From a virus: DNA of 64,000 nt. The position numbers were made by a program, and so were the translations under genes. Of the stretch, positions 31,492 through 62,032 are shown piece by piece. How positions within the stretch are numbered: the first letter of the stretch is position 1; each line of letters opens with the position of its first letter. The stretch spans positions 1-64,000 of IMG/VR virus record IMGVR_UViG_3300048839_000424; one strand, written 5' to 3'. The notes below the pieces were generated by a model that made no database searches, was not told where the DNA came from, and was given only the letters and a program-made list of their open reading frames with translations.

Positions 31492-31716
31492 ATGCGAGTG
31501 TACGTAAATCTCGACCCACATACACAAGAGGAAGATGTCGAAGCCATCCGTTCGGATTTGGCTCTGAATATGCGAAATGAGTATCCTCATGTGAGTATAG
31601 ATGTTGGTATTGGATCGGCATTTTCAGTATCCTTTATTGGAGTCCCTGAGAAACTCAAAGCGGAAATCTATCTACTGATCAATAGTTACTTTCATGGCGA
31701 AGAAGACGACCTCTAA
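31492..31716 (+). CDS. Small protein preceding the chaperonin gene
   Basis: A 74-aa acidic protein (MRVYVNLDPHTQEEDVEAIR) with an alternating strand-helix-strand-helix pattern. It is the first gene after the terminator and overlaps the chaperonin gene by 23 bases, so the two are probably co-translated. It is too short for GroES (about 97 aa) and lacks the mobile-loop and 'RP..DRV.V' features of GroES. Function unknown. Confidence 0.5.
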   Translation: MRVYVNLDPHTQEEDVEAIRSDLALNMRNEYPHVSIDVGIGSAFSVSFIGVPEKLKAEIYLLINSYFHGEEDDL

Positions 31717-33247
31717 AAAAGTCCACCACGGATTGCAAGCAAGAAAAGGGCTACTGAAAGGTGCCCTTGATTTGTCACGTCTCGTAGGGGTTACATACGG
31801 CCCCTACGGTCGTAATGTCGTTCTTGACCGTCCCGTAGGGATTCTATCTACCAAGGATGGCGTCACCGTTGCTTGGGAATACGAACCTCAAGACCCGGTA
31901 GAACGCATGGGAGTTCGAATCGTACAGGAGGCGTGCTCGAAAGTCTCCAAGTCCGCTGGAGATGGGACAACAAGTACGGCGGTTCTGATCGGAGCTATCT
32001 TGCGAGAAGCCCATAAATGGGTCGTGGCAGGAAAAGACCCTATGCTCATCGCTCAAGAGATGCAGACGTTCGTGCAGGAGAGCCTGGAGGAGATGTTGAA
32101 TCTCTGGAAACGTGATGTAAGCACGGACACGGACCTACTAACCGTTGCATTAAGAGCCTGTAACGGAGATAGGGAACTAGCAACGGCGTTGGTTCAGGTC
32201 ATGGGCAAGATCGGAACGAAAGGCGTCGTTGTTCTGGAAGAAGGAAAATCCCGAGAGATCGAGATGGTTTTCAAGCAAGGGTTAGAAACTGACAGAGGTT
32301 GGGAGAGTTCGGATTTTTGTCCCTCGGATGACAGTAAGGTGTTTTTCGAGTTGCCCTTGGTCGCTCTGGTAGATGACGTGTTGGAGAAAGCCGAGCAGGT
32401 AGTTCCTATCCTCGAAGAAGCCTCCCAGTTTCCGCATCCTTTGGTGATCGTGTCCAAGGGCATGTACGGGGATGCGTTGAAAACACTCCTCATGAACCAA
32501 GAAACGGTGAAGTCCTGTGGGGTTCGTTGCATGGGACATCATGAGTTCATGAGAACACATTTAGAGGATTTAGCGGCGATATCGGGAGCAACCGTGTGGG
32601 CTAAAGAGTTGGGGGAATATAAGGCGGAGTATCTAGGTTCTGTTCAAACGGTCACGGTCAAGAAGGAGTCCTCGACATTCGTTGCTTTCCCTGATAAAAA
32701 TGAGCAAGTAGCGATGAGAATCCGTCAACTGGAGAATCAACTCGTAAGCACGGAGAGTGTTTTCGAGCAAGATAAGCTCAAGGAGAGAATCGCCAAACTT
32801 TCGGATGGGTTTTGTCTTTTGAGAGTCGGTGGGGATACGGAGTTAGAGATCAAAGAACGTCGTGGAAGATTGGAGGATGCTTTGTTTTCCATGAGATTAG
32901 CGGTAGAGCATGGGGTGGTTCCGGGGGGTGGGCTTACCTTTTTCAAGGTTGGTCAGTTGTTGGAGGATGCGGATAGCATTGGAGAGCGGATACTATCTGT
33001 GGCTTTGAAGGAACCATTCCGCAAGATTTACAGTAATGGTGGTAAGAGTCCTCGCGTGTTAGAGGCTCAAATGGAGTATGTTCCAGTAGACTCTTGGGTA
33101 GGGTATACTCTTGATGGGATACGGGATGTGTCTCAAGGTAAGGGATTGTTAGATTCGGCATCCTCTGTGTTAGAGGTGATTCGAGTTTCTGTTTCGACCG
33201 CGAGTACTATTCTTACCTCAGAGGTTTCGATTACGAGTATCAAATGA
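31694..33247 (+). CDS. groEL: Phage GroEL-type (group I-like) chaperonin
   Basis: A 517-aa protein with the GroEL landmarks in order: TYGPYGRNVVLD (cf. TLGPKGRNV), STKDGVTVA with the ATPase Asp, GDGTTSTAVL with the second nucleotide-binding Asp, ERRGRLEDAL with the catalytic Asp equivalent of D398, VPGGGLTFF, and GLLDSASSVL...TSEVSIT near the end. It is slightly shorter than the usual 548 aa and lacks the GGM tail; the apical region is divergent. The family forms a double-ring ATP-dependent folding chamber. Phage chaperonins of this type are known (for example in phiKZ-like phages), where they may fold phage virion or replication proteins. No GroES gene is visible in this window. Confidence 0.92.
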   Translation: MAKKTTSKKVHHGLQARKGLLKGALDLSRLVGVTYGPYGRNVVLDRPVGILSTKDGVTVAWEYEPQDPVERMGVRIVQEACSKVSKSAGDGTTSTAVLIGAILREAHKWVVAGKDPMLIAQEMQTFVQESLEEMLNLWKRDVSTDTDLLTVALRACNGDRELATALVQVMGKIGTKGVVVLEEGKSREIEMVFKQGLETDRGWESSDFCPSDDSKVFFELPLVALVDDVLEKAEQVVPILEEASQFPHPLVIVSKGMYGDALKTLLMNQETVKSCGVRCMGHHEFMRTHLEDLAAISGATVWAKELGEYKAEYLGSVQTVTVKKESSTFVAFPDKNEQVAMRIRQLENQLVSTESVFEQDKLKERIAKLSDGFCLLRVGGDTELEIKERRGRLEDALFSMRLAVEHGVVPGGGLTFFKVGQLLEDADSIGERILSVALKEPFRKIYSNGGKSPRVLEAQMEYVPVDSWVGYTLDGIRDVSQGKGLLDSASSVLEVIRVSVSTASTILTSEVSITSIK

Positions 33248-34254
33248 GTGACAAATACAAAATCATACACGGAAATATGCTTGAAGTGTTGAAAACACTT
33301 CAAGAAAATAGCATCGACGCCATCGTTTGTGATCCACCCTATGAAATCAATTTCATGGGCCGAGGTTGGGACAAATCCGGCATCGCATTCCAAAAAGAAA
33401 CATGGGCTGAATGTTTAAGAGTATTGAAGCCGGGAGGCTATTTAGTAGCATTTGGAGCGGCGCGAACGATGCATCGCATCACATGCGCGATTGAGGATGC
33501 CGGTTTCGAAATTCGAGACACGTTGCAGTGGGTTTTTGGAAATGGGTTTCCCAAGTCGCTGGACGTTGGTAAAGCTATTGCGAAACGTGCAGGCGGCGAA
33601 ATCGAAGCGCGTGCAGCTATCGAGTGGATGAAGCGCGAACGGGAGAGGTTGGGTCTTTCCCGTGCAGCTCTTGAAGTCCGCATTTTCGGGCGCTGTGATG
33701 GCAACGTGAGGAACTGGGAGGACGCCATTTCGCTACCAAGGCCGGGGCTTTGGCCGCAGATTCGCGCGGCACTCGGGCACGGTGCGACGCTGTTCGACGC
33801 TGTGATGGAGAGGGGTGACGAAAAGGTAGGTGAGACAACCGGATCTTATGGGTATCAAGCTGACGGGTCTAGGTGGAAAAAGCCACGCGAGTTGCGAGAG
33901 CCGAACACAGAAGCAGCGAAAACCTGGCACGGCTACGGCACCGCACTAAAACCAGCGCACGAGCCGATCACGCTGGCCCGAAAGCCCTTACAGGGCACGG
34001 TCGCCGCGAACGTGGCGAAGTGGGGAACGGGCGGGATTGACGTTGACGGGTGTCGGGTCGGGGAGAGCAAGCGCGTGCCTGGTAACGCTAGCTGTGCTAG
34101 CGAGTATAAAGTGGGGCACATCGCAGAGGGTCACTACCTCAAGGGGCTAAGGTATCTAGCGGAAGGTGAGAGTTCCGGTAACGGTCCCAACGTAGGCCGC
34201 TGGCCGCCGAACCTCATCATCGACGACGGCGCGGGCGAGGATCGCCCATGCTGA
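33244..34254 (+). CDS. DNA methyltransferase lacking its SAM-binding C-terminal half
   Basis: A 336-aa protein. CDPPYEI near residue 30 is motif IV of beta-class N4/N6 amino-methyltransferases; LKPGGYLVAFGAAR follows. About residues 120-180 look like an inserted XRE-type helix-turn-helix (MKRERERLGLSRAALEVR, then VRNWEDAISLPRPG). Then LARKPLQGTVAANV and GGIDVDGCRVG lead to GRWPPNLIIDDG. Complete relatives continue to a 'HPTVKP...FxGSGTTG' SAM-binding module, which is absent here: the frame stops at 34254 after GEDRPC. The tag EDLNELFG lies just downstream in another frame, so a deletion plus frameshift is likely. From about 33590 the DNA is CpG-richer than its surroundings, which suggests acquisition. 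Probably inactive alone unless complemented. It overlaps the chaperonin stop as ATGA. Confidence 0.75.
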   Translation: MSDKYKIIHGNMLEVLKTLQENSIDAIVCDPPYEINFMGRGWDKSGIAFQKETWAECLRVLKPGGYLVAFGAARTMHRITCAIEDAGFEIRDTLQWVFGNGFPKSLDVGKAIAKRAGGEIEARAAIEWMKRERERLGLSRAALEVRIFGRCDGNVRNWEDAISLPRPGLWPQIRAALGHGATLFDAVMERGDEKVGETTGSYGYQADGSRWKKPRELREPNTEAAKTWHGYGTALKPAHEPITLARKPLQGTVAANVAKWGTGGIDVDGCRVGESKRVPGNASCASEYKVGHIAEGHYLKGLRYLAEGESSGNGPNVGRWPPNLIIDDGAGEDRPC

Positions 34255-34270: not shown

Positions 34271-34297
34271 GAGGATTTGAATGAGTTATTCGGATGA
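34271..34297 (+). pseudogene. Out-of-frame remnant of a methyltransferase C-terminal tag (EDLNELFG)
   Basis: Reading 34271-34297 gives EDLNELFG and a stop. This frame is +1 relative to the methyltransferase ending at 34254. The same peptide closes the ORFs at 43958 and 45938. It looks like the surviving end of a lost methyltransferase C-terminus. The stop overlaps the ATG of the next ORF. Confidence 0.65.
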
Positions 34298-34590
34298 GGA
34301 TTGTATCAGTGATAAGGAAGCCCTTTGAGGGATCGACAACGCAAAACGTGTTGGTTCATCATGTCTCGTGTATCAACATTGACGGGACCACCCATCAAAC
34401 TCACGGTGCGGGAAGCAACGGGATTTATGGGAAGTATGCTGCCATTCAAAGCAACAAAACACGAGGACAGGAACTTGGCCGTTGGCCAGCAAACTTGATT
34501 TTGAGCTACCCAGAGGGTGTTGAGACATTGAATCAACAAACAGGGTTGGAGTACAATGGGGCAAGGTTCTTCAGGAATGTTCTGCTATGA
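34294..34590 (+). CDS. Orphan methyltransferase middle-module fragment
   Basis: A 98-aa ORF starting MRIVSVIRKPFEGSTTQN, followed by INIDGT and GRWPANLILS. These are the elements that lie between the catalytic DPPY part and the SAM-binding part of beta-class methyltransferases (compare KPLQGTVAANV, GGIDVDG and GRWPPNLII in the gene just upstream). The first 54 bases are nearly identical to the start of the ORF at 44433. It has neither motif IV nor motif I, so it cannot methylate by itself. It may be a remnant or a subunit-like specificity module. ATGA overlaps at both ends keep it in the translation chain. Confidence 0.5.
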   Translation: MRIVSVIRKPFEGSTTQNVLVHHVSCINIDGTTHQTHGAGSNGIYGKYAAIQSNKTRGQELGRWPANLILSYPEGVETLNQQTGLEYNGARFFRNVLL

Positions 34591-36066: not shown

Positions 36067-39000
36067 ATGGATGAGGCATTAAAAGTAGCGTATGAGAAAT
36101 TGAAAGAGATCCGGGGTCGCAAGGATCTCGCCCTCAAACCCAACAAGTACCTCAAGGACACCTTTACGGGATTTGATGGGCAGGAGTATCCGTTCAAGCT
36201 ACGGTACTACCAAGTCCAAGGGGTTCTTCACATGGTTGTGATGAATCGTTTTCTTCTTGGGGACGACACCGGCACAGGAAAGTGCCAGCCGTATGATTCT
36301 CTTGTTCTGACTGACAGGGGTCTCCTAAAGATGGGGGAAATCGAAGATTGGTCAGACATGACACCTGATAGCTTTCGCCCTATGAGCAAAAGCCTTCATG
36401 TGTTAGTAGATGGGGAAAAACTCCCCATCAAGAGCTTTTACTATGGTGGGGTCAAGTCTACGGTTACGGTCCATACTAGGTATGGGTTTAAAAACACTGG
36501 GTCACAAGTTCACCCAATGTTAGTTCTTCGGGATGGTTCCCATCAATGGGTGCAGGCTAAAGATCTGATTGAGGGGGACTATCTTTGTATTGAGAGACGT
36601 GAGATGTCCTTCCCCGAGAGTGAGCCCAAGCTAATCGGGAAAGGCCCCTTGGAAGAGGTAACACCTGATTTTGCTCGATTTGTGGGTTACTACATTGGAC
36701 GAGGTACTCTAATAGCTAGAGACCAGATAAGTGTCTCCCAGTACCCAGTGAACCCCCCCGAGGTGCTTGCAGACATTATCCGTGTTATGGGTTCAGTTTT
36801 CAATAAGGTTCCCTCACATCTTAAGGGAATAGACTTGAGTGTCTGTGACACGAGAGCACGACGGTGGTTGGTTGAAAATGGTATGGGTTATCTGAAATCT
36901 GCATACCGAGACATTCCTGACTGTATTCTCCAGGCTTCAAAAACTAGCACTCAAGAGTTTTTACGAGCCTTTTTTGAGGGAGCGGGGCACGTGGATAAGT
37001 CCATCGAACTTACCACCACATCAAAAACACTAGGGGAGCAGCTACAAGTCCTACTCCTGAGATTTGGTGTAGTAGCTAAGAGAGAAAAGGTCTATAGTCA
37101 AGGGGTCTATGGTCAAGAGGGTCATGTTTATTGGCGCCTGACTATATGTGATAGAGAAGCCGAAATCTTTCGTGACCAGATTGGGTTTGTGTCCTCTCGA
37201 AAAAAGGAGGCTTTAAATGCACTCGTCGATTGCAGTACGCCTCTTTTGAACACGTCGTATTTTTACGACCCTGTTGTAGAGATAGAACAAGGGGAAGAAG
37301 AGGTTTTTGACATTGAAGTGGATGACCCTCGTCATTGTTTCGTCAGCAATGGGTTTGTCAATCACAATACTGCGATGGCTATTTCATCCTATGCCTACGT
37401 CTTAGACAAAGAGCCGAATACGAAAGCAGTAGTGCTTACGAACAAGTCCGTGGTTGGTCAATGGGCCTTGGAATTCGAGAAGTTCACGAAACCGGGGATG
37501 ATTCGAGTCATCCAAGTAAGTGGAACCCCAAAGAAGCGGGAAGCCGCTTATGAGGAGTTCAAGAATAGTCAAGGTCCAACCGTGATGATCATGGGATATG
37601 CGACTGCGCGACAGGATGTCAAACAGCTTCAAACCATCAAGGACTACATTTTGATCACGGACGAAGCGAGTGCCTACAAGAACCCTTCCTCCCAGATTCA
37701 CCAAGTCGTTCGGTTCATGGCGAATCAACAGGCGAAGCGCGTCTGGGCTCTCACAGCAACCCTGATCAAGAACAATCTAGTCGAGGGGTATGGGATCTAT
37801 TCAGTCCTGTGTCCGGGATTGTTCCCCCCAACGAAAAATGCGTTCATCAACTCGTATGCAATCACGAGGATGCAGAAAATCGCGGGCTCTAATCGCCAAG
37901 TCCCGGTCATTGTAGGATATCGGAAGGACCACATTGAGAACTTCCGTAACAAAATTGACCCCTTCTTCCTGTCTCGGTCCAAGATGGACGTGGCTTCGGA
38001 ACTTCCCGTGTTGACGATTAGGGAGGACAAGGTAGCGTTGACGCCCGAGCAACAGACGAAATACCAGGAGGCTTTGGATGGTCTCCTAGAGATTGATACG
38101 ACGGGTGAACAGAAGGAGACGACAAAACTCACGAGTCTAATCTACTGCCAACAAATCGTAGACCACCCGGACTTGATTGACTGTGAGGGGGGCTCGTACA
38201 AGATGGACCACTTGTTCGACATTCTCACGGAGGGCGATTTGGCAGGTGAGAAGGTCATTGTGTTCTCGCGGTTCCGCAAGATGATCGACCTCCTGGAGAA
38301 AGAGGCGAAGAAAAAGAAGATCACATCGGTGAGAATCACTGGTGCTGAAACCAAGGAGGAGGTGCGAAAGGAAGCGATGCAAAAGTTCCAGGATCCAAAC
38401 TCTGATGTTCAGGTCTGCTTTATTACTACAGCGGCAGCAGAGGGAATTAACCTCCAAGCGGCGAAAGCCATCGTTTTCTTCGACTCTCCTTGGTCCGCTG
38501 GAGATTACCTTCAGTGTTTAGATGAGGATACAGAAATATTGACTCAAAGAGGTTTTGTGGGTCGTACCTCTATTAAAGAGGATGATTTAGTTGCTGCAAT
38601 GAACACTCAAACCTCTGAAATTGAATGGCAGCCGATTCGTTCTATTACTGATCGTCCACGAGCGCAAGACGAACAAATGTATGAAGTCTCTACGAGACAT
38701 GTAAATATACGTGTCACAGGTGGACATCGTATGTTGTATAGAAGAAAAACGCTTAGAAACAACGTAGCGGTTTGGCCTATGGGGTGGGAAATTGAAACCG
38801 CTGAACAAATGGCAGTAGAGAAAACTCATTATCAAATCCCTGCCGCTGGTGAACAAAATTCAAAGGGGTTACCTCTCACTCAAGATCAACTTGAGTTTAT
38901 AGGTTGGTTCTTGTCTGACGGTTCCCTTAACAAATCAAACCATCAATTGGTAATTTCGCAAGCAATACATCAACCTCAGATTGTAGATTTACGGCGATGC

Positions 39001-39822
39001 ATTGAAAATTGTGGGTTTGATTGGAGCGAGTACAACCGAGATCCCAAAATGACTAAAGGATTTCCAAATGGTAAACCTCAAATAGTCTTCTCTATCCCCA
39101 AAGGAACACAAAACGGCACTCGTGCAAGGAAAGGATGGAAAGAACTAGAACCTTACCTTGACAAAGAGTTGTCACCCTTGTTAGAGGATGTAACCCCCGA
39201 ACAATTAAGTGCCCTGCTCCGAGGGTTGCATCTAGGGGATGGGAGTAAATATAGAGGTGACAAGTGGAATCAAGCCTCTTATCACATTTTCACTGGAAGA
39301 AAGGTTTTTGCCGAAAGACTACAGAGCTTGTGTGTTAGACGCGGTTTTCGTTGTAATCTCTCTATTCGACAGGCTGCACCTGGAAGAAAAGAAGGGTACA
39401 CACTACATATAAAAAAGACTAATGCGTGGTCTCTATGTGGAAATAAAAAAATGATAGGGCGCTCTCATATGTCCCCTTCCAAAAACATAGAACATGAGAG
39501 AGTATGGTGTGTTGAAAATGATTTGGGTACGCTCGTAACACGTCGTCGTGGAAAAGTAGCTGTTGTAGGAAATTGTATTGGGCGAATGATTCGCATTGGA
39601 AGTCAGCATGATCGTTGCTATGCGATTCACTTGGTCGCTTCGGGTACGATTGATGAGGATGTCATTGTGACCTTGAAGAAGAAGATGAAACTCGTAGAGA
39701 AAATCATGGGCAAGAGGTTGAAGGGTGAGAAGGATCAGGATGCCGTCATCGAGGCGGAAAACGACATCTCTGACCTATTTGATTCCGTCCGTGCGAATGC
39801 TCGAACTCGTAAGTACAAGTGA
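36067..39822 (+). CDS. SNF2-type helicase/ATPase interrupted by two inteins
   Basis: A 1251-aa precursor. Removing residues 73-434 and 817-1169 leaves a 536-aa helicase with GDDTGTGK/T (Walker A, split by intein 1), ITDEASAYKN (motif II), ALTATLIKNN (motif III), ITTAAAEGINLQAAKAIVFFD (motif V) and LQ/CIGRMIRIGSQ (motif VI, split by intein 2). Phage SNF2-type ATPases act on DNA during replication, recombination or DNA remodelling. The C-terminus has ENDISDLFDS, similar to the LF-containing tails of the methyltransferases here. It heads the replication block and is followed by a DnaC-like and a DnaB-like gene. Confidence 0.88.
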   Translation: MDEALKVAYEKLKEIRGRKDLALKPNKYLKDTFTGFDGQEYPFKLRYYQVQGVLHMVVMNRFLLGDDTGTGKCQPYDSLVLTDRGLLKMGEIEDWSDMTPDSFRPMSKSLHVLVDGEKLPIKSFYYGGVKSTVTVHTRYGFKNTGSQVHPMLVLRDGSHQWVQAKDLIEGDYLCIERREMSFPESEPKLIGKGPLEEVTPDFARFVGYYIGRGTLIARDQISVSQYPVNPPEVLADIIRVMGSVFNKVPSHLKGIDLSVCDTRARRWLVENGMGYLKSAYRDIPDCILQASKTSTQEFLRAFFEGAGHVDKSIELTTTSKTLGEQLQVLLLRFGVVAKREKVYSQGVYGQEGHVYWRLTICDREAEIFRDQIGFVSSRKKEALNALVDCSTPLLNTSYFYDPVVEIEQGEEEVFDIEVDDPRHCFVSNGFVNHNTAMAISSYAYVLDKEPNTKAVVLTNKSVVGQWALEFEKFTKPGMIRVIQVSGTPKKREAAYEEFKNSQGPTVMIMGYATARQDVKQLQTIKDYILITDEASAYKNPSSQIHQVVRFMANQQAKRVWALTATLIKNNLVEGYGIYSVLCPGLFPPTKNAFINSYAITRMQKIAGSNRQVPVIVGYRKDHIENFRNKIDPFFLSRSKMDVASELPVLTIREDKVALTPEQQTKYQEALDGLLEIDTTGEQKETTKLTSLIYCQQIVDHPDLIDCEGGSYKMDHLFDILTEGDLAGEKVIVFSRFRKMIDLLEKEAKKKKITSVRITGAETKEEVRKEAMQKFQDPNSDVQVCFITTAAAEGINLQAAKAIVFFDSPWSAGDYLQCLDEDTEILTQRGFVGRTSIKEDDLVAAMNTQTSEIEWQPIRSITDRPRAQDEQMYEVSTRHVNIRVTGGHRMLYRRKTLRNNVAVWPMGWEIETAEQMAVEKTHYQIPAAGEQNSKGLPLTQDQLEFIGWFLSDGSLNKSNHQLVISQAIHQPQIVDLRRCIENCGFDWSEYNRDPKMTKGFPNGKPQIVFSIPKGTQNGTRARKGWKELEPYLDKELSPLLEDVTPEQLSALLRGLHLGDGSKYRGDKWNQASYHIFTGRKVFAERLQSLCVRRGFRCNLSIRQAAPGRKEGYTLHIKKTNAWSLCGNKKMIGRSHMSPSKNIEHERVWCVENDLGTLVTRRRGKVAVVGNCIGRMIRIGSQHDRCYAIHLVASGTIDEDVIVTLKKKMKLVEKIMGKRLKGEKDQDAVIEAENDISDLFDSVRANARTRKYK
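36283..37368 (+). other. Intein 1 of helicase (Walker A site), degenerate endonuclease
   Basis: The 362-residue intein begins with Cys (CQPYDSLVLTDRGL) and ends FVNHN before Thr of the extein, so the splice joins GTGK to TAMAI. LAGLIDADG-type helices are recognisable as FVGYYIGRG and LRAFFEGAG, but the catalytic acidic residue is replaced by Arg in the first and Ala in the second. The homing endonuclease is therefore probably dead while splicing residues remain. Confidence 0.85.
38515..39573 (+). other. Intein 2 of helicase (motif VI site) with intact LAGLIDADG
   Basis: The 353-residue intein runs from CLDEDTEILTQRGFVG to VAVVGN, before Cys of CIGRM. FIGWFLSDGS and LRGLHLGDGS keep the acidic residues, so the endonuclease may be active. 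The penultimate residue is Gly where His is usual. The DNA looks more AT-rich than the flanking helicase exons, which suggests recent arrival. Confidence 0.85.
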
Positions 39823-39838: not shown

Positions 39839-40711
39839 ATGAGTAGGAACCCCTTTGCGGACCCCGCTTGTCCGAAATGTCACGGGCGTGGGTTTATTTA
39901 TGCCGAGTCCATGTTAGATGGTGGGCGCTATTGTGAGTGTACGATGGAGGGGATGCGAGTCCAAAATATGACTCGCATCTGGGAATCCTTGGAATCAGCC
40001 AAGGAGATCTCGGTGTTGCGGAACGACCCCCCGCTCAAGAGATTCCTCAAAAAGTCCTGTCGAATCACGGCGCCCGTAGCTCTCTTTAAGGCTCATTTGA
40101 AGGCATTGGCGTACAATATGCCTACGGCATGGAATGCTCGTGTCCATACGGATGCAGAACTCCTAGACGTATGGTTTGGCACCCTGAAGGCACAGGGGAT
40201 GAAAATATACGACTTCGAGATTGAAAACTCGACGTTGAGGGCTATTGACATTCGAGACCTCGTAGAGCCCCATGACCTTTGCATCATCCTCATGGGGGTC
40301 AAGAAACTTCCCAACAAGGAGGCGCCATCGAGCTTAGCGGAGGCGATTTCTTACCGGAACCACTTGGACAAACCCACTTGGGTGATCGACCAACCGGACT
40401 TACCTTTGGATGGTAATCACAGATATCACAATCAGGAAGTCGAACGCATGTTGGCGAAATGGCCGCATGTAGTTCTCTCCGGCCCGAATGTAACGGTGAC
40501 CAACGAACCACGTACAAACTCTCCGGTGGCAACAAATGCTCTAGCGACCGTAGATGACCTACTGGTAACCGAGGATGGGCTTCAAGAGGAAGAAGAGGAG
40601 CTATTCGAGGAGGACGTAGTTTCTGCCCCTCAAACGAAGAATTTGCTTTCGACATTGACGGTAGAATCGAAGTCCAAGAAGCCCTGGAAAGGGAATAGGC
40701 CCAAGCGATGA
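39839..40711 (+). CDS. DnaC/DnaI-like putative helicase loader with N-terminal zinc motif
   Basis: A 290-aa protein starting at ATG 39839, with AAGGAG at 39832-39837; the longer upstream frame is inside the helicase gene. Residues 10-35 (CPKCHGRGFIY, then GGRYCECTMEG) match the zinc-binding N-terminus of DnaC/DnaI-type loaders. The middle (EPHDLCIILMGVKKLP, then AISYRNHLDKPTWVID) has the spacing of a Walker B/sensor region of such AAA+ proteins, but I see no Walker A GxxGxGK[ST]. A Glu-rich stretch (LQEEEEELFEED) precedes a basic tail. Its position directly before the DnaB-like helicase supports loader function; the missing P-loop makes it a weak call. Confidence 0.5.
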   Translation: MSRNPFADPACPKCHGRGFIYAESMLDGGRYCECTMEGMRVQNMTRIWESLESAKEISVLRNDPPLKRFLKKSCRITAPVALFKAHLKALAYNMPTAWNARVHTDAELLDVWFGTLKAQGMKIYDFEIENSTLRAIDIRDLVEPHDLCIILMGVKKLPNKEAPSSLAEAISYRNHLDKPTWVIDQPDLPLDGNHRYHNQEVERMLAKWPHVVLSGPNVTVTNEPRTNSPVATNALATVDDLLVTEDGLQEEEEELFEEDVVSAPQTKNLLSTLTVESKSKKPWKGNRPKR

Positions 40712-42273
40712 AGATTTTACTTCGATCCGTATTCATTGTCAATGCGAGTGACAGTGAGCAGTTGTTTCTCCAGAATTACCATGCCTTGGTTGAGTCCGGG
40801 CTTGGTTTTGACATGCTGGAGGACATCAATATTTGGAAGTTCATTCAGGATTTCTATCAGGGGCATGGTCACCTGCCTACACTCCAGACGATTCGTTCTC
40901 ACTTCGAGCGCGTTCAGGAGCTAGAAGTTGTTGACCGTCTTGAACGCTTGGCGATGGAGTCCCCGAAAACTCGTGGTGACTTTATTTCGTTCTTGGAGAC
41001 TCAGGCGGAAGACCGTCGTGTCAAAATCGTCATGGAACTTGCCAAGGAAATGGCGACCATCGCCCAAACGGGTATCGACGTAAAGGACAAGGGCGGGAAG
41101 AACTCCAAGAAGTTCCTTGGGGCCGTAGATGCCATCCGGTGGGTTCTCGATCGTTCGCATGAGCTAGTCTCTCCGACGCTGGGAAGTCGTCTCTCCGGCA
41201 ATGTGGCGACCGATGGGGAGACCTTCATCACCCGGTATGAGCGCGTCAAATCGGACCCACAGTTTGGGATTGGGTGTTATACGGGGATTCGACAGGTAGA
41301 CGATGCCTTGAAAGGGGCAAAGCGGTACGAGCTTTGGATTCACGCAGGATTCACGGGTTCGTTGAAGTCTAGTCTTGCTCTCCAGTGGGCCTACAATCAA
41401 ATGGTCTACTACCGCAATTCGACCCTGTATTTTTCGTTGGAGATGCCTTACATTCAGTGCATGAACATGCTCTATGCGATGCACACGGCACATGAAAAGT
41501 TCGCACAGATTCGAGCGCAGTTGGGGATTCAAGATATCGGGCTCGACTACGAGCGGATGAAAAATGGTGTCCTAGCTCCCCATGAGGAGAAGTTCCTGTT
41601 CGATTACGTAGTTCCCGATTTCAACAAAAAATCCACGGTACCGGCGACGGGTCCATATCCCGTAGAGGCTCATGAGTATGGGGATATCTACATCGAGGTT
41701 GCTGACCCTGACAAAACGGACTTCACGGTTTTGGAGCTACGAGCCAAGGCGGAGTTGATTTATTCCAAAACGCCGTTCAAGATGGTCGTGGTGGACCATG
41801 TGGGTTTGATGTCACCACGGGAGCGATATGGGTCTACTACGGAGAAGATCAATGAGGTAGTTCGAGACTTGAAAAAACTAGCCATGAGTTTCAACCGGGG
41901 TATGGGTATTGCGGTCGTTGGGTTGGCTCAGTTATCTCGTGAGGGGTATCGAGCCGCTGAAAAGAACGGTGGTAAGTACAACTTGACTCACTTGAGTTAT
42001 GCCAACGAGATTGAGCGTTCCGCTGACATTGTGACGGCGACTTGGATTGATGATGACCTGAAAAAAATCAACCGTGGTATTATTCAGTGTTTGAAGTCTC
42101 GTGACCAGGCACCATTTGAACGATGCCCTCTTCGGGTAGAGTTCTCATGTCGTCGAATCACAACGGACAATACGTCCATTGATGAGATTGAGAACAAAAT
42201 TCAAGCAAAGCGGGGGGACATAGACAAGATCAAACCCCACAAGTCGAAAGTACCTGACCTTGGAGACATATGA
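40708..42273 (+). CDS. DnaB-like replicative DNA helicase
   Basis: A 521-aa RecA-fold helicase. The N-terminal 130 residues are helical, as in the DnaB N-domain. The core has WIHAGFTGSLKSSLAL (Walker A, about residues 210-225, with Leu where Gly is usual), TLYFSLEMPY (cf. 'vlffSLEM'), VVVDHVGLM (Walker B, about 355-364; DnaB has DYLQLM) and VVGLAQLSREG. An arginine-finger-type segment and ANEIERSADIV follow. It unwinds DNA at the fork as a hexamer, in the usual family role. It starts in an ATGA overlap with the putative loader and ends in one with a methyltransferase part. Confidence 0.85.
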   Translation: MKILLRSVFIVNASDSEQLFLQNYHALVESGLGFDMLEDINIWKFIQDFYQGHGHLPTLQTIRSHFERVQELEVVDRLERLAMESPKTRGDFISFLETQAEDRRVKIVMELAKEMATIAQTGIDVKDKGGKNSKKFLGAVDAIRWVLDRSHELVSPTLGSRLSGNVATDGETFITRYERVKSDPQFGIGCYTGIRQVDDALKGAKRYELWIHAGFTGSLKSSLALQWAYNQMVYYRNSTLYFSLEMPYIQCMNMLYAMHTAHEKFAQIRAQLGIQDIGLDYERMKNGVLAPHEEKFLFDYVVPDFNKKSTVPATGPYPVEAHEYGDIYIEVADPDKTDFTVLELRAKAELIYSKTPFKMVVVDHVGLMSPRERYGSTTEKINEVVRDLKKLAMSFNRGMGIAVVGLAQLSREGYRAAEKNGGKYNLTHLSYANEIERSADIVTATWIDDDLKKINRGIIQCLKSRDQAPFERCPLRVEFSCRRITTDNTSIDEIENKIQAKRGDIDKIKPHKSKVPDLGDI

Positions 42274-42875
42274 ACCTGACATTAAAACACGGTGATTGCG
42301 TAGAGCGATTGAAAGAAATCGAGTCGAACTCCGTAGATGCGGTCATTTGCGATCCGCCCTATGATATCGCGTTCATGTCTCGAAAATGGGATGATGAGAA
42401 CACGTTGACGAACGAGGCGATCTGGCGCGAGTGTTACCGGATTTTGAAGCCAGGGGGTGAGATTCAAGCCTTTGCGGCAACAAGAACCTTTCATCGGTTA
42501 GCGAGGACGTTCAAGAACATTGGGTTTGAGGGTATGCGATTAAAAGCCTTCACCTATGGGAGTGGATTTCCGAAATCTACGAATATATCGAAGCAGATTG
42601 ACAAACGAGCCAAGGCGGAGAGGAAGGTCGTGGGGTTCAAAAAAGGGGTTGGTGGTCAGAACTTGAATGACCTCGTGAACAACCGGGATGAGATCCGTAG
42701 TACGGATCAGGAAGGTGGTAAGGGGGTTGGAGCGTATGGGACGGGAGCGAAGCAAGTCGCAGTAGATGTACCTATCACGGAACCAGCGACACCGGAAGCC
42801 AAGCTCTGGGACGGGTATGGTACAGCCTTGAAGCCCGCATGGGAACCTATTGTCGTGGCCAAGAAACCTCTGTGA
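42270..42875 (+). CDS. Split methyltransferase, part 1: catalytic DPPY module
   Basis: A 201-aa ORF with the beginning of a beta-class amino-methyltransferase: LKHGDCVERLKEI, then DAVICDPPYDI (motif IV, about residues 24-33), LKPGGEIQAF and YGSGFPKS. It stops after WEPIVVAKKPL, exactly where relatives continue into the KPL.GT..N and NID.CR middle segment; that continuation is in the ORF at 44433. There is no SAM-binding FxGxG here; that motif is in the ORF at 45042. The short C-terminus ending at a module boundary suggests splitting rather than random decay. ATGA overlap with the helicase. Confidence 0.75.
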   Translation: MNLTLKHGDCVERLKEIESNSVDAVICDPPYDIAFMSRKWDDENTLTNEAIWRECYRILKPGGEIQAFAATRTFHRLARTFKNIGFEGMRLKAFTYGSGFPKSTNISKQIDKRAKAERKVVGFKKGVGGQNLNDLVNNRDEIRSTDQEGGKGVGAYGTGAKQVAVDVPITEPATPEAKLWDGYGTALKPAWEPIVVAKKPL

Positions 42876-42887
42876 GTGATATAAAAA

Positions 42888-43958
42888 ATGAGCGAGAATA
42901 ATATAAAATCCCCATTCCCATATTTCGGCGGTAAGAGATTGATTGTAGATATGGTTTGGCAGCGCCTCGGAAAGCCAAAACAGTACATTGAACCATTCTG
43001 CGGAAGCGCGGCTATGCTGCTCGGTGCTCCGTCTCCGGCATCTCTGGAGGTGATCTGCGACGGGTCCGGGTTCATTGCAAATTTTTGGCGCGCAGCAAAG
43101 CACCAGCCCGCCGCTGTTGCTGAACATGCCGATTACATTGTAAGCCACATCGACCTCGGAGCGCGGCATCGGTGGCTGATGGATCAGCGCGACCGCATCG
43201 GAGAAATCTTGCAAGACCCCGATCACCCAGGCGATGCGAAGGTCGCGGGGTGGTGGCTATGGGGCCAGTGTTTATGGATCGGTAGTGGCTGGTGCGATTG
43301 GGACAAGACGGGACAGATCCCGCACGTCAGCGACGCCGGGAGGGGCGTGCAGGCGATCGGCAAGATCCCGCACGTCAGCGACGCCGGGTGTGGCGTGCAG
43401 GCGATCGGCCAGATCCCGCACGTCAGCGACGCCGGGAGGGGCGTGCAGGCGATCGGCAAGATCCCGCACGTCAGCGACGCCGGGTGTGGCGTGCAGGCGA
43501 TCGGCCAGATCCCGCACGTCAGCGACGCCGGGATGGGCGGCCTCATGACCAGTTCGGGCCGCGCCGCGTGGGTCGCCCTGCACGCACTCGCGGACAGGCT
43601 GGAGCGATGCCGGGTCATTCACGGAGACTGGTCGCGCGCTATGAATCACCATTATGGCGGGAACAACACAGCGGTGTTCCTTGACCCGCCATATGTCGCA
43701 TATGAGAATCTCTACGGCGTAAAACATCCGGTAGCACTTGATGTCGCAGAGTGGGCCAGGAAGCACGCTCATCTTCGCGTTGCTCTGTGCGGGCACATCG
43801 GAGACTACGAAATGCCGGGGTGGGACGCCGTGCCGTGGGAAAGGTCGCGATTGACATACGGCGGGGCATCGACCAAGGCGAGCGAGTGCATATGGTTCTC
43901 ACCTGCATGTTTTCCACCACCAGATGAATCGAAGGATTTGAACGAGTTATTCGGATGA
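42888..43958 (+). CDS. D12-class (Dam-like) adenine-N6 methyltransferase with tandem repeats
   Basis: A 356-aa alpha-class methyltransferase. SPFPYFGGKR and IEPFCGSAAMLLG are the N-terminal and SAM-binding motifs; VFLDPPYVAYENLYG (about residues 261-275) is motif IV. Between them, residues 143-215 contain a 16-residue unit (IPHVSDAGRGVQAIGK, alternating with IPHVSDAGCGVQAIGQ) repeated four times plus a part. The protein ends DLNELFG, the tag shared with the split methyltransferase. No clear Shine-Dalgarno precedes the ATG. The DNA is CpG-richer than neighbouring replication genes, consistent with transfer. The usual product is N6-methyladenine protecting phage DNA from restriction. Confidence 0.85.
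   Translation: MSENNIKSPFPYFGGKRLIVDMVWQRLGKPKQYIEPFCGSAAMLLGAPSPASLEVICDGSGFIANFWRAAKHQPAAVAEHADYIVSHIDLGARHRWLMDQRDRIGEILQDPDHPGDAKVAGWWLWGQCLWIGSGWCDWDKTGQIPHVSDAGRGVQAIGKIPHVSDAGCGVQAIGQIPHVSDAGRGVQAIGKIPHVSDAGCGVQAIGQIPHVSDAGMGGLMTSSGRAAWVALHALADRLERCRVIHGDWSRAMNHHYGGNNTAVFLDPPYVAYENLYGVKHPVALDVAEWARKHAHLRVALCGHIGDYEMPGWDAVPWERSRLTYGGASTKASECIWFSPACFPPPDESKDLNELFG
43314..43533 (+). repeat. 48-bp in-frame tandem repeat array in the D12 methyltransferase
   Basis: Four full 48-bp units (starting 43314, 43362, 43410 and 43458) and a 28-bp partial unit from 43506. Units 1 and 3 are identical, as are 2 and 4; the two types differ at three bases, so the array is really two 96-bp copies. Each unit encodes 16 residues around IPHVSDAG.GVQAIG. 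Confidence 0.97.
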
Positions 43959-43986
43959 TTCTCATCCGTAATCCATTAGGGGGTCC

Positions 43987-44436
43987 GTGACTTCCGAGTT
44001 GCTGATTTGTATAGGAGGAATTAGAACTCCTCCTGTGGATGTGGAATCCTTGGTCAAATGTCTTGGAGTATCTGTAATTTACAAGGACAGTGTAGAGGTT
44101 TCACGACTAGAGGTTAATGGTAACCAGGCTACTATTGTTGTGAACTCAAATGCTTCCAAGCAACGCCAGAGATTTGCTTTAGCGCATGAACTTGGGCATT
44201 TGTTGAGACATGACCTTACGAAACCAACATGCCATTATGATTTCAGAGGGCATGCTGCGATAGAGCGAGAGGCTAATATTTTTGCAGCCTCTCTTCTTAT
44301 GCCAAGGTCTATGCTGGGGTTGTATCTTGGGTACACAAGCCTTGATCTCGACCAGATCGGCCGGGTTTTTGATGTACCACGAACTACTTGTGAGTACCGA
44401 GTAGCGCACTTTCTCCGTGGGTATCGTGATTTATGA
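43987..44436 (+). CDS. ImmA/IrrE-type zinc metallopeptidase
   Basis: A 149-aa protein. FALAHELGHLLRHD (about residues 59-72) gives the HExxH zinc site, and EREANIFAASLLMPRSML about 25 residues later supplies the third ligand Glu and the 'A..LLMP' signature of the ImmA/IrrE family. The family includes proteases that cleave repressors (ImmA acts on ImmR) or transcriptional regulators in stress responses. No HTH partner lies beside it. It is probably started by GTG 43987, with AGGGGG just 3 bases before it, an unusually short spacing. It lies between two parts of a split methyltransferase and overlaps the next ORF as ATGA. Confidence 0.8.
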   Translation: MTSELLICIGGIRTPPVDVESLVKCLGVSVIYKDSVEVSRLEVNGNQATIVVNSNASKQRQRFALAHELGHLLRHDLTKPTCHYDFRGHAAIEREANIFAASLLMPRSMLGLYLGYTSLDLDQIGRVFDVPRTTCEYRVAHFLRGYRDL

Positions 44437-45041
44437 GAGTAGTATCAGTGATAAGGAAGCCCTTTGAAGGGTCTGCGACTCAAAACATCGTAATCAATGA
44501 ATGTGGTGGGTTGAACATTGATGCCACTCGCATTGGAGGAGAACCTTCACCGTCAGTAGATAGACGTAAATATTCTCCAAAAGAGTGCGTTGGCGCTACA
44601 GGATGGACAACGCCAGCACGTCCAGCATCGTACAATGAACAACGCGCAGGTGAGCAGAGTGGCCGATGGCCAGCGAATCTGATGTTAGTACATACGCCTT
44701 TGTGTGTCTTTGAGGGTCATGTAAAGCAGAAGGGGTACATGATTAATCGTTGGACTGACGGTGCGAAACCTTTCGGTGGGGGAGCGGGACATGACTATGC
44801 GGGACAGCAGCAAAACGATCTGAATGTAGAGTCGTGGAAATGTCATCCGACTTGTCCTGTTTCCCATATGGACTCTCAAAGTGGTGTTTCTAAATCCTCC
44901 GGTGGAAGAATAGGTAACGCTCAGGGGGTATACTCGAACCAAGGTCGCACTGGATGGGGTACAGGACATCAAGCGGGAGACCCTGGGTACGGAGATAGTG
45001 GTGGTGCATCACGGTATTTCAAGCAGGTAAGGAGCAAATAA
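44433..45041 (+). CDS. Split methyltransferase, part 2: middle/recognition-type module
   Basis: A 202-aa ORF starting MRVVSVIRKPFEGSATQN, then GGLNIDATRIGG and GRWPANLMLVHTP. These elements join the DPPY and SAM-binding parts in intact beta-class methyltransferases. The remainder is Gly/Ser-rich with CHPTCPVSHMDSQSG and GGASRYFK, the usual linker just before the SAM-binding part. The first 54 bases nearly match the ORF at 34294. It ends at 45041 and the next ORF starts at 45042. Confidence 0.65.
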   Translation: MRVVSVIRKPFEGSATQNIVINECGGLNIDATRIGGEPSPSVDRRKYSPKECVGATGWTTPARPASYNEQRAGEQSGRWPANLMLVHTPLCVFEGHVKQKGYMINRWTDGAKPFGGGAGHDYAGQQQNDLNVESWKCHPTCPVSHMDSQSGVSKSSGGRIGNAQGVYSNQGRTGWGTGHQAGDPGYGDSGGASRYFKQVRSK

Positions 45042-45938
45042 ATGTCACAAGAACCGGAAGAACTAAAATCCTATCTCCAACGCTTGATCTCCCCACCGGA
45101 ACAAGTTGGCCCTATCGTCATCGTCGAGGACGACCTCTCCCAAGTGGACTTTGCCTCCTATGCGGATTCCTCAGTCCACGGATTGATCACAAAGGGGAAC
45201 CCAGAGAAGTATTTCGACGAAATCGACCGTATTCTGCGTCCCGGTGCCCACATTCTCCTGATCTCGGAGCAAGATGACATCAACTTCGAGGGCACTTGTG
45301 CTTTGGAGGATAGGGGGTACGAAGTCCGTGACAGCATTTGCCTCTTGGACTCTCCAGCGGATGAGTTCCTGTACACGACGAAAGCCTCCAAGTCTGAAAG
45401 GAACGCAGGTGTTCCTGAATACACCAATACAGTAGAACAAGCCGTGATTAAAGACGGTCTATCTGATGACCTCTATGCCGATATTCTCTTCCACTTGGAG
45501 GAAAATGGGTTCGATTCCAGTAGCGAGGATGCCTACAAGTCTCTGAAGGGGAAGAAAATCGACCTGAAGCTCATTAGCAAGGAGTACTTGGAGCACTTCG
45601 ACATTGTAAATACGGTGACTCAAGTCGTGCAGAATAATCACCCAACGGTCAAACCGATCTCTATTATGGAATTCTTGATGCAAGACTTGCCCCAGGGGGG
45701 TATTGTTGTAGACCCTTTCATGGGGTCTGGGACAACGGGTATTGCTTGTGTCAGAACGAACCATCAATTCGTTGGAATTGAGCGCGAGGCGGAGTATATT
45801 CGTATTGCTGATGCTAGAGTTCGGCATTTCATTGCCGAGAAGCTAGATTCGGTTGTCTTTGGTATAGTTTCGGAGGCACCCGCATCGCCATCCCCCATGT
45901 CTCAAATCGAGGATGACCTGAATGAGTTATTCGGATGA
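45042..45938 (+). CDS. Split methyltransferase, part 3: SAM-binding module
   Basis: A 298-aa ORF. The C-terminal part has NHPTVKPISIMEFL, then VVDPFMGSGTTGIACVR (motif I, about residues 221-237) and FVGIEREAEYIRIADARV, the standard C-terminal SAM-binding half of a beta-class methyltransferase. The N-terminal half (residues 1-120) resembles a degenerate catalytic domain: 'ADSSVHGLITKGNP' and 'ILRPGAHILLISEQDD' sit where DPPY and LKPGG would be, but DPPY itself is missing. The catalytic motif would therefore need to come from the ORF at 42270 or another protein. It ends EDDLNELFG. Confidence 0.75.
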   Translation: MSQEPEELKSYLQRLISPPEQVGPIVIVEDDLSQVDFASYADSSVHGLITKGNPEKYFDEIDRILRPGAHILLISEQDDINFEGTCALEDRGYEVRDSICLLDSPADEFLYTTKASKSERNAGVPEYTNTVEQAVIKDGLSDDLYADILFHLEENGFDSSSEDAYKSLKGKKIDLKLISKEYLEHFDIVNTVTQVVQNNHPTVKPISIMEFLMQDLPQGGIVVDPFMGSGTTGIACVRTNHQFVGIEREAEYIRIADARVRHFIAEKLDSVVFGIVSEAPASPSPMSQIEDDLNELFG

Positions 45939-46489
45939 GAAAATCTATGAGAGAACCCACGACAGTACCAAGAGTCATTGCATTGACTGGACCCTTGGGC
46001 GTAGACAAAACTTCTGTTGCGAAGGCTTTACAGGGTCTACTGAAATCTAAGGGCAAAGAAACTGTGCTTGAGTCATTCACTGCACCTGTCCATGCGATTT
46101 TGTCCTCTTTGAACCTAGAGAATAATTGGGAGGTGAAGAAAGCAGTAATCGCTGCAATTCAAAAAAGCATGGGTTCTTGGGCATTGAATACTGCTCTGGA
46201 GAACAGGCTAACAGAAGATGGTGGGTTTAGTCTACACTTGATGCCAGGAGTCCTTCTCGACGATCTTCGCACGTATGAAGAGACGGAGTGGGTAAGGGAG
46301 TACCACGGTGCTATTGTGGAGATCACACACGAGGGTATCGAATACTCCGAAGATTGTGACCCAAATCAGTTTAACTTCGGTCAGACTTTTCAAGGTAGTG
46401 TAGATGCCACTGGGAAAACACCAAAGGAAGTAGCCTTAGAGGTGTTTGATTTGGTCAAGAGACGGGATTACTTGGTCAAGAGAATATGA
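45935..46489 (+). CDS. Deoxynucleoside monophosphate kinase-like protein
   Basis: A 184-aa P-loop protein. LTGPLGVDKTSVAKAL (about residues 17-32) is Walker A, with Asp in the place where Gly or Ser is common. VLLDDLRTYEETEWVREYHGAIVEITHEG matches the 'vDDvR...E...ir..gg..i.v' segment of phage dNMP kinases. The family phosphorylates dNMPs to supply replication. It overlaps the previous gene as ATGA and ends just before the nuclease gene. Confidence 0.6.
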   Translation: MRKSMREPTTVPRVIALTGPLGVDKTSVAKALQGLLKSKGKETVLESFTAPVHAILSSLNLENNWEVKKAVIAAIQKSMGSWALNTALENRLTEDGGFSLHLMPGVLLDDLRTYEETEWVREYHGAIVEITHEGIEYSEDCDPNQFNFGQTFQGSVDATGKTPKEVALEVFDLVKRRDYLVKRI

Positions 46490-46496
46490 GGTACCA

Positions 46497-46811
46497 ATGT
46501 ACACGTATAAAGGAAGAGTCATTAAAGTCGTAGATGGGGACACGTTGGATGTCGAGATTGACCTTGGATTTGACATCAAACACAGCATTCGAGTTCGACT
46601 GTTGAATGTCCATGCCCCGGAGATCCATTCCGTCAAGAAAGGTTCCGAGGAATATATTCGTGGTATGGAAGCCAAAGAAAAGGTTGACCAATGGGTCGCT
46701 AGCAACCCTGAAGTGAGGATCCTCACGGTCAAGGACAAAAAAGAGAAGTTCGGCAGGTACCTCGCTGAGATTTGGGACATTTCTCACACGTCTTGCCTGA
46801 ACCACCTGTAA
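46497..46811 (+). CDS. Staphylococcal-nuclease-like (SNase) domain nuclease
   Basis: A 104-aa protein. IKVVDGDTLDVEID holds the Asp pair that binds calcium, RVRLLNVHAPEIH the Arg and Glu of the active site, and KFGRYLAEIW the second Arg. The domain cleaves DNA and RNA. I chose ATG 46497 because GAGG lies 6 bases ahead and the SNase fold starts directly; the frame is open to 46446 but that part lies inside the previous gene. No signal peptide, so it probably acts in the cytoplasm, for instance in host DNA breakdown. Confidence 0.8.
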   Translation: MYTYKGRVIKVVDGDTLDVEIDLGFDIKHSIRVRLLNVHAPEIHSVKKGSEEYIRGMEAKEKVDQWVASNPEVRILTVKDKKEKFGRYLAEIWDISHTSCLNHL

Positions 46812-60825: not shown

Positions 60826-61250
60826 AGACTCAGTACACATTCGTGATTTCCGGGGGTGATCCTTTGACGTTACAGTTGAGGGGGTGTCCACCTATGCGAT
60901 ATGAGGGTCCGGGGTCTACGGTGTTCCATGTCATTTGCACGCGGGAGGAAGCTCTTCATGTTGAGATGACTTTCAAGGAAGCCCACTGCAAGGTCGTTGT
61001 CCATACGCATGGGGAGACGGTCGAGCAGAAACAAATGAGGGTCAATCTTCTTGCATTACAGGGGGAGAACAGTTTTCCGACGAAAGACTGTCCCTCTTGC
61101 CCTTGGTTTGATCCCGAGATTTCAGGTCTCTGTGGGGCTGGTAAGACTGGGAGTGAGCAATACTCCGAAGCTGTGATTAAACATCAAATGAAGTCGGAGC
61201 GATTTAAGGACGCCTACAACAACTGCACATGGGACACGAAATCAAACTGA
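60822..61250 (+). CDS. Hypothetical protein with C-terminal cysteine cluster
   Basis: A 142-aa protein. DCPSCPWFDPEISGLCGAGK plus a later NNCTW gives four cysteines that could bind zinc or an iron-sulphur cluster. The first 80 residues are beta-rich. Not assigned. It overlaps the methyltransferase gene by 22 bases. Confidence 0.45.
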   Translation: MKTQYTFVISGGDPLTLQLRGCPPMRYEGPGSTVFHVICTREEALHVEMTFKEAHCKVVVHTHGETVEQKQMRVNLLALQGENSFPTKDCPSCPWFDPEISGLCGAGKTGSEQYSEAVIKHQMKSERFKDAYNNCTWDTKSN

Positions 61251-62032
61251 CGCCCGCATTGGAGGGCCTGAAGGGGATGGATTCTTCAGTAGGGCTCGTA
61301 GTTACGGACCCACCTTACAACACGTTGGAAAAGTGGCGTGCTGTAGGGACGACGACCAGGCTTACCAAGTCGGATGCAAGTTCGAATGAATGGTTCCCTA
61401 CAGTTGACTTCGACTATTTAAAGGACGTGTTTCGAGAGTGCTACCGGGTATTGAAGCCCAATACTCACATGTACATCCTGTGCGATGAGGAGACGGCGGA
61501 TCACCTAAAACCCATCGTAGACGAGATTGGATTCAAACGGAAGAAGTCCTTGATTTGGCACAAGGTCGGTAAAAAAACCGACGTTCACTGTCCAAAATGC
61601 GGCACTTTTGTTCACACGACGAACAGCCCCGGTGCTCCAGGTATGGGTTATCCGTATCGATCATCGTATGAGATGATTCTCCTGTTGGAGAAGGGGAAGC
61701 GCCCTATGCCTACGGATTTGAGCGTTCGGAATGTGTTGAGTTTCCCGTACCTGAAGGGAAAGTCGTACTACCCTACGGAGAAGCCGGTAGACATGTTGGA
61801 GGTGTTTATCACTCAGAGTTCCAATCCTGGAGATTTAGTTCTTGACCCGTTTGCTGGAAGTGGTTCGACTGGTGTAGCAGCATACAATTTGGGACGAGAA
61901 TTCCTTGGGTTTGACGTGCAGGAGAGAAGCCTGGAGTATTTTTCATCTCGGTTGGGTGAGGTGTCTCTAGTATCCGATACGGAGGATACCAAGAGTGAGC
62001 CCAGCGTCTTTGACCTGTTTGGGGATGAATGA
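61229..62032 (+). CDS. Complete beta-class DNA methyltransferase (N4/N6)
   Basis: A 267-aa enzyme. VTDPPYNT (about residues 25-32) is motif IV and LVLDPFAGSGSTGVAAYN (about 203-220) is motif I, in the beta-class order. 'LKPNTHMYIL' and 'YPTEKPVDMLEVFI' are the flanking conserved parts. HCPKCGTFVH suggests a small zinc knuckle in the recognition region. It ends VFDLFGDE, similar to the DLNELFG tails of other methyltransferases here. The product would be methylated C or A on phage DNA. ATGA overlap with the next gene. Confidence 0.88.
   Translation: MGHEIKLTPALEGLKGMDSSVGLVVTDPPYNTLEKWRAVGTTTRLTKSDASSNEWFPTVDFDYLKDVFRECYRVLKPNTHMYILCDEETADHLKPIVDEIGFKRKKSLIWHKVGKKTDVHCPKCGTFVHTTNSPGAPGMGYPYRSSYEMILLLEKGKRPMPTDLSVRNVLSFPYLKGKSYYPTEKPVDMLEVFITQSSNPGDLVLDPFAGSGSTGVAAYNLGREFLGFDVQERSLEYFSSRLGEVSLVSDTEDTKSEPSVFDLFGDE

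Follow-up and report, generated by a model that had tools for sequence, protein, structure and literature searches.

The virus record IMGVR_UViG_3300048839_000424 is 78,215 bp long, and its first 64 kb (positions 1 to 64,000), referred to here as the window, carry three plus-strand open reading frames (ORFs) with the complementary modules of a beta-class DNA amino methyltransferase. Part 1 (P0001, positions 42270-42875, 201 amino acids) is the half that spans motifs IV to VIII, with the DPPY motif typical of motif IV; it ends in GTALKPAWEPIVVAKKPL before the stop codon, lacks a motif for binding S-adenosylmethionine (SAM), and is called the catalytic subunit (CAT) below. Part 2 (P0004, 44433-45041, 202 amino acids), which begins with MRVVSVIRKPFEG and continues through GRWPAN and CxxxC to GGASRYFKQVR, is a putative target-recognition domain (TRD). 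Part 3 (P0005, 45042-45938, 298 amino acids), termed PSD-SAM, consists of a degenerate catalytic half (PSD), in which SVHGLITKGNP stands where DPPY is expected, and the half with motifs X and I-III (HPTVKP...DPFMGSGTTG), followed by the C-terminal tail DLNELFG. Motifs X and I thus follow a catalytic half as in the beta class, yet on a different polypeptide from DPPY. A scan of the whole 78 kb record identified part 3 as its sole PSD-SAM. A first-pass annotation of the window had placed the three ORFs at exactly these coordinates, and its assignment of DPPY to part 1, of the FMGSGTTG module to part 3 and of a degenerate catalytic half to part 3 agreed with the sequence and with the database matches.

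Part 1 matched one half of phrog_67, the catalytic one (E=1e-30), and part 3 the later half (E=6e-28). In profile searches of the PDB, part 1 aligned with residues 16-143 of CcrM and part 3 with residues 70-264, and the Pfam match of CAT was N6_N4_Mtase. Part 2 matched phrog_3008 weakly (E=4e-4), and the Pfam search returned no match for it. The DnaB ORF overlaps part 1 at 42270-42273, an ImmA ORF overlaps part 2 at 44433-44436 (4 nucleotides), part 3 overlaps the next ORF at 45935-45938, and parts 2 and 3 adjoin without overlap (TAA followed directly by ATG). The GC content at third codon positions (GC3) was 0.39 for the TRD versus 0.57 for CAT and PSD-SAM.

Two further plus-strand genes lie between parts 1 and 2: a D12-class adenine methyltransferase (42888-43958; Pfam MethyltransfD12, E=4.6e-8), which ends in DLNELFG, and an ImmA/IrrE-like peptidase (43987-44436; Peptidase_M78, E=6.5e-20; GC3 0.38), the gene that overlaps the TRD start by 4 nucleotides. 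Their identities, already proposed at first reading, were confirmed by these Pfam matches. The composition of the D12 gene is unlike that of its neighbours (GC 60%, GC3 0.70), and the two genes are inserted cargo outside the split enzyme. The break had been described as falling exactly at a KPL/KPF module boundary; the position was upheld, whereas a clean cut was not, since both parts hold the boundary strand. This strand occurs once in single-chain enzymes (WEPIIVARKPLVG; GTALKPAWEPIIVARKPLVGTVAEN) and twice in the split form, at the end of part 1 (WEPIVVAKKPL) and at the start of part 2 (MRVVSVIRKPFEG).

One relative of this locus is L009, on a 152-kb contig that is syntenic with the window through an SNF2 helicase, the ORF before DnaB, DnaB and then a catalytic half. 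That catalytic ORF, which carries an intein-like insert, has KPAWEPIVVARRPE as its last residues and shares 4 nucleotides (GTGA) with the next ORF, which starts with VRVVTLSRK and contains parts 2 and 3 fused; D12 and ImmA genes are absent between the two. Because the part 1/part 2 split exists there without the cassette, the cassette inserted between genes that were already separate, and the split predates the D12/ImmA insertion. Two more free middle modules follow the fusion ORF; elsewhere the contig has another catalytic half and a fourth middle module, whose frame is disrupted. A free TRD of the L009 virus on the minus strand (L045:4313-4968) was readable only with a frame change and is either a decayed copy or an assembly error.

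Alignments between the proteins of the window and those of L009 opened up a wider family; P0004 and P0005 alone, searched against viral contigs, had returned nothing or one distant locus. All loci were scanned with four unit profiles (CAT, TRD, PSD and SAM half); all relatives are metagenomic contigs of unestablished completeness. As a result, about 35 deduplicated viral loci were identified that combine free-standing modules with a PSD-SAM, so the split, which the first-pass annotation had proposed to look for in related viruses, recurs in L009 and across this set. Exactly one PSD-SAM was present in 35 of the 35 loci having one, beside up to four CATs and six TRDs. Scans of whole contigs found one PSD-SAM in 22 of 22 and in 10 of 14 others; among the remaining four, G011 had only single-chain-type matches and G004, G009 and G010 had no PSD-SAM. 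Free-standing TRD-homologous ORFs occurred in more than 30 viral contigs, and no Pfam model matched them. Module order varied among loci. L147 comprised eight ORFs in the order TRD-CAT-TRD-CAT-CAT-TRD-CAT-PSD-SAM; L146 held five CATs and six TRDs, with the contig's only strong PSD-SAM match about 1 kb away, and L128 held six tandem TRDs, each overlapping the next by 4 nucleotides. Exactly this overlap joined 62 of 85 closely spaced module neighbours. The parts are linked by single-chain CAT-TRD-SAM enzymes and by natural TRD-PSD-SAM fusions (L009, L047, L052, L056, L135 and others). This array logic, in which a lone SAM subunit is accompanied by many CATs and TRDs, was absent from the first-pass annotation. 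Among the single-chain relatives, L017:6894-9611 carries two tandem middle modules in one polypeptide, and L018 has one middle module and a long insert in CAT. A first scan of genome contigs for PSD-SAM gave no match, and the matches listed in a later scan were mostly SAM-half-only or similar to ordinary methyltransferases. A cultured carrier of the split form was not identified, the four isolated-phage matches inspected being annotated single genes, and the architecture is not described in the literature that our search, of partial coverage, returned.

The modules are conserved. DPPY was present in 46 of 53 free CATs, the other seven being reading frames that miss motif IV, and in none of 38 PSD-SAMs, in which motifs X and I are nearly invariant; two additional CAT matches with DPPH (L120 and L122) look unrelated. 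CATs share the terminal boundary GTALKPAWEP..(K/R)KP. The ratio of nonsynonymous to synonymous substitution rates (dN/dS), taken only where dS was not saturated, was about 0.05-0.22 for CAT, 0.06-0.15 for PSD-SAM and 0.06-0.30 for TRD, and all three are under purifying selection. In the CAT tree, 43 split CATs formed one clade (support 99) with the single-chain enzymes outside it, and part 1 fell inside this clade, nearest to L052, L135 and L009; the SAM-half tree agreed, with a support of 78 on few columns. The modules are therefore complementary, individually incomplete fragments kept under selection, and their single clade, retained motifs and purifying selection are not what recurrent disruption of whole genes would produce.

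The middle module occupies the interval between motifs VIII and X that holds the target-recognition region in beta-class enzymes; part 2 is homologous to the in-line module of single-chain enzymes, its role in recognition being putative. TRDs have conserved ends and several poorly conserved interior segments. H87, C91, C137 and C141 were invariant in 47 TRD sequences, which suggests a metal site. In two loci, L174 and L177, the CATs are 73-97% identical and the PSD-SAMs 87-100%, whereas a block of about 120 bp inside the TRD is only 40% identical between flanks of about 80-100%. The variability, the block swap and the GC3 difference fit an exchangeable reader without proving one.

Taken together, these observations make it likely that the products of the three ORFs come together in trans as a single DNA adenine methyltransferase, with TRDs and CATs probably exchanged on one PSD-SAM hub. 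CAT would bring the DPPY active-site half and PSD-SAM the cofactor-binding half, the two forming a composite active site on which the TRD would dock as in single-chain enzymes, reading the sequence and setting the target. If the motifs act as in known enzymes, neither CAT, which lacks the SAM motif, nor PSD-SAM, which lacks the catalytic motif, would methylate alone. The dead catalytic half is most likely a scaffold or a dimerizing pseudo-partner, as MTA9 is for MTA1 (PMC9852454). Since CATs and TRDs are often multiple in a genome that has only one PSD-SAM, exchange of TRDs (and CATs) on one hub is probable, and several methylation specificities would thereby arise from few parts. The purpose, most simply, would be to shield viral DNA from host restriction.

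Several points weigh against this reading. The complex and its activity are predicted from sequence, and the identity of the TRD follows from its variability and its position between motifs VIII and X. No solved structure matched the TRD in a structure search, and P0004 alone folded poorly in AlphaFold (pLDDT 57); the Foldseek list for this model was discarded as meaningless at such low confidence. The single-chain model of P0005 had a pTM of 0.52, with confident halves in an uncertain arrangement, and the halves did not co-superpose on CcrM or M.BceJIV (root-mean-square deviation of about 20 Å). The P0004 and P0005 models neither prove nor exclude assembly. Furthermore, three TRD-bearing contigs had no PSD-SAM, G004 and G010 being also devoid of CAT and G009 having one, and the module starts behind the count of 4-nucleotide overlaps were assigned by profile.

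Three other explanations were weighed. The possibility raised at first reading, that the D12/ImmA cassette broke an intact methyltransferase gene and left decaying remnants, is very improbable. It draws on the foreign composition of the cassette, on its placement exactly between parts 1 and 2 and on a truncated single-chain-type copy in the same genome (P0006, described below), but L009 has the same boundary free of the cassette, the split is one old clade and the modules are under purifying selection. Duplication of the boundary strand, which each fragment has kept and which a simple break would not produce, also counts against gene damage. Intact relatives combined with neutral decay, the pattern named in advance as telling against a split enzyme, were not found for this locus. 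The first-pass annotation, which had left trans assembly and a damaged gene side by side, was thus sustained in part: damage was not borne out, and trans assembly is strongly supported by the recurrence in about 35 loci, the single clade, the kept motifs and the purifying selection.

Equally improbable is a working enzyme of one chain, with the ORFs united before or after translation by an intron, trans-splicing, a split intein or frameshifting. An Rfam search of 40500-46500 found no intron RNA, parts 1 to 3 have no intein ends, and every module has a start and a stop of its own; several CATs and TRDs per PSD-SAM, in varying order, cannot pair one to one into single chains. The idea gains what plausibility it has from the frequency of inteins in this virus group, where they occur in the SNF2 helicase of the window, in the PSD-SAM of L060 and, as an intein-like insert, in a CAT of L009. 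Somewhat less remote, although still unlikely, is an enzyme made of CAT and PSD-SAM with the free TRDs acting as regulators, DNA-binding decoys or inhibitors. TRD function was deduced from position and variability alone, the TRD folds poorly by itself and has no solved relative, and in G004 and G010 TRDs were found but no CAT or PSD-SAM. In contrast, single-chain relatives include this module in their one polypeptide, between the CAT and SAM halves, TRD-PSD-SAM fusions are common, and the sole fine-scale swap observed (L174/L177) lies within the TRD.

A second locus in the window, absent from the first-pass annotation, holds related pieces on the plus strand. The ORF at 33244-34254 encodes a second DPPY protein, P0006, with a catalytic half and a truncated middle module but no SAM half; it belongs to the single-chain lineage in the CAT tree and is probably a truncated copy. 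It is followed by a second free-standing TRD of short form (34294-34590, 98 amino acids), identified by a TRD profile match, whose first 54 nucleotides match the beginning of the ORF at 44433 with 83% identity. A gene for a GroEL-type chaperonin (31694-33247; Cpn60_TCP1, E=6e-43) directly precedes P0006.

A nearly identical 24-nucleotide sequence coding for DLNELFG and a stop codon occurs three times, at 43935-43958, at 45915-45938 and as an orphan plus-strand copy at 34274-34297, out of frame with P0006 and directly before the second TRD. With a pattern chosen after the tails had been seen, similar endings (SIFDLF, SLDDLFGL) were counted in 24 of 35 PSD-SAMs versus 1 of 46 single-chain enzymes and 55 of 1112 other ORFs. 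A mere recombination scar was set aside given this enrichment, and the tail may be a sliding-clamp docking peptide. A methyltransferase at 61229-62032 ends in VFDLFGDE.

Other features concern repeats and inteins. The D12 gene contains five in-frame 48-bp units (43311-43550; IPHVSDAGxGVQAIGx), and long open frames exist there on the opposite strand as well. The SNF2-family helicase (36067-39822) is interrupted in its Walker A region by a LAGLIDADG intein and carries an apparent second intein further on; its L009 orthologue (119-1732) has no intein at either place. The insert in the L009 CAT (L009:6588-8330) is bounded as YG|C...GN|SGFPKS, and that of L060 (6492-8372) lies between PSD and SAM and gave Hint and LAGLIDADG matches.

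These elements allow a more tentative proposal, to which we give slightly less than even chances: a combinatorial viral methyltransferase whose SAM-binding pseudo-enzyme would act as the one hub, perhaps held at the replication clamp by a C-terminal (D/E)LF(G) tail, and would take interchangeable catalytic and target-recognition subunits from gene arrays, gaining new specificities when one small ORF is added or swapped. If tripartite assembly is true, this well-studied class of enzymes also exists naturally with its catalytic, cofactor-binding and sequence-reading functions on separate gene products and with the readers encoded in arrays. This would explain how uncultured viruses cheaply carry many methylation specificities, and would provide a natural set of swappable methylation readers. 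Annotation pipelines would miss such an enzyme because the free TRDs match no Pfam model.

Among known systems, single-chain phage beta-class N6-adenine methyltransferases (phrog_67; PF01555; for example, mycobacteriophage DNA methylases) have the same modules in the same CAT-TRD-SAM order, and the best of them are 42-47% identical to part 1 across its full length. However, they are one polypeptide with one active CAT and no PSD, and their clade is separate from the split CATs. CcrM, M.BceJIV and other solved beta-class enzymes gave the best PDB profile or fold matches of CAT and PSD-SAM. When CcrM is bound to DNA, its structure shows catalysis by one monomer, with C-terminal residues of the second placed at the DNA (PMC10359602), but CcrM is a homodimer of whole enzymes. 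Type I HsdM/HsdS systems and M.AhdI have a separate specificity subunit, but HsdM, unlike CAT, is catalytically complete and has a SAM site of its own. The EcoKI M and S genes overlap and are translationally coupled (PMC3510504, PMC2878638). Membership of Type I was rejected: CATs lack SAM motifs and belong to Pfam N6_N4_Mtase, no HsdM/HsdS match was obtained, and the TRD had none to HsdS. One enzyme from two polypeptides is seen in M.AquI, M.EcoHK31I and engineered split C5 methyltransferases, whose fragments complement one another, with a short overlap required at some split positions (PMC3404938); assembly from fragments is therefore possible in principle. Those systems are of the C5 class and have two parts, with neither arrays nor a pseudo-catalytic hub described for them. 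A further parallel lies in METTL3-METTL14 and MTA1-MTA9-p1-p2, where the active subunit works beside a partner that has a degraded catalytic motif; the motif of MTA9 is NALW, and the MTA1 complex has separate DNA-binding subunits (PMC9852454). The active subunit of those systems itself binds SAM, whereas here the active half has no SAM site and the pseudo-enzyme carries it, so the predicted enzyme would be a viral counterpart of METTL3-METTL14 and MTA1-MTA9 in which the labour is divided the opposite way.

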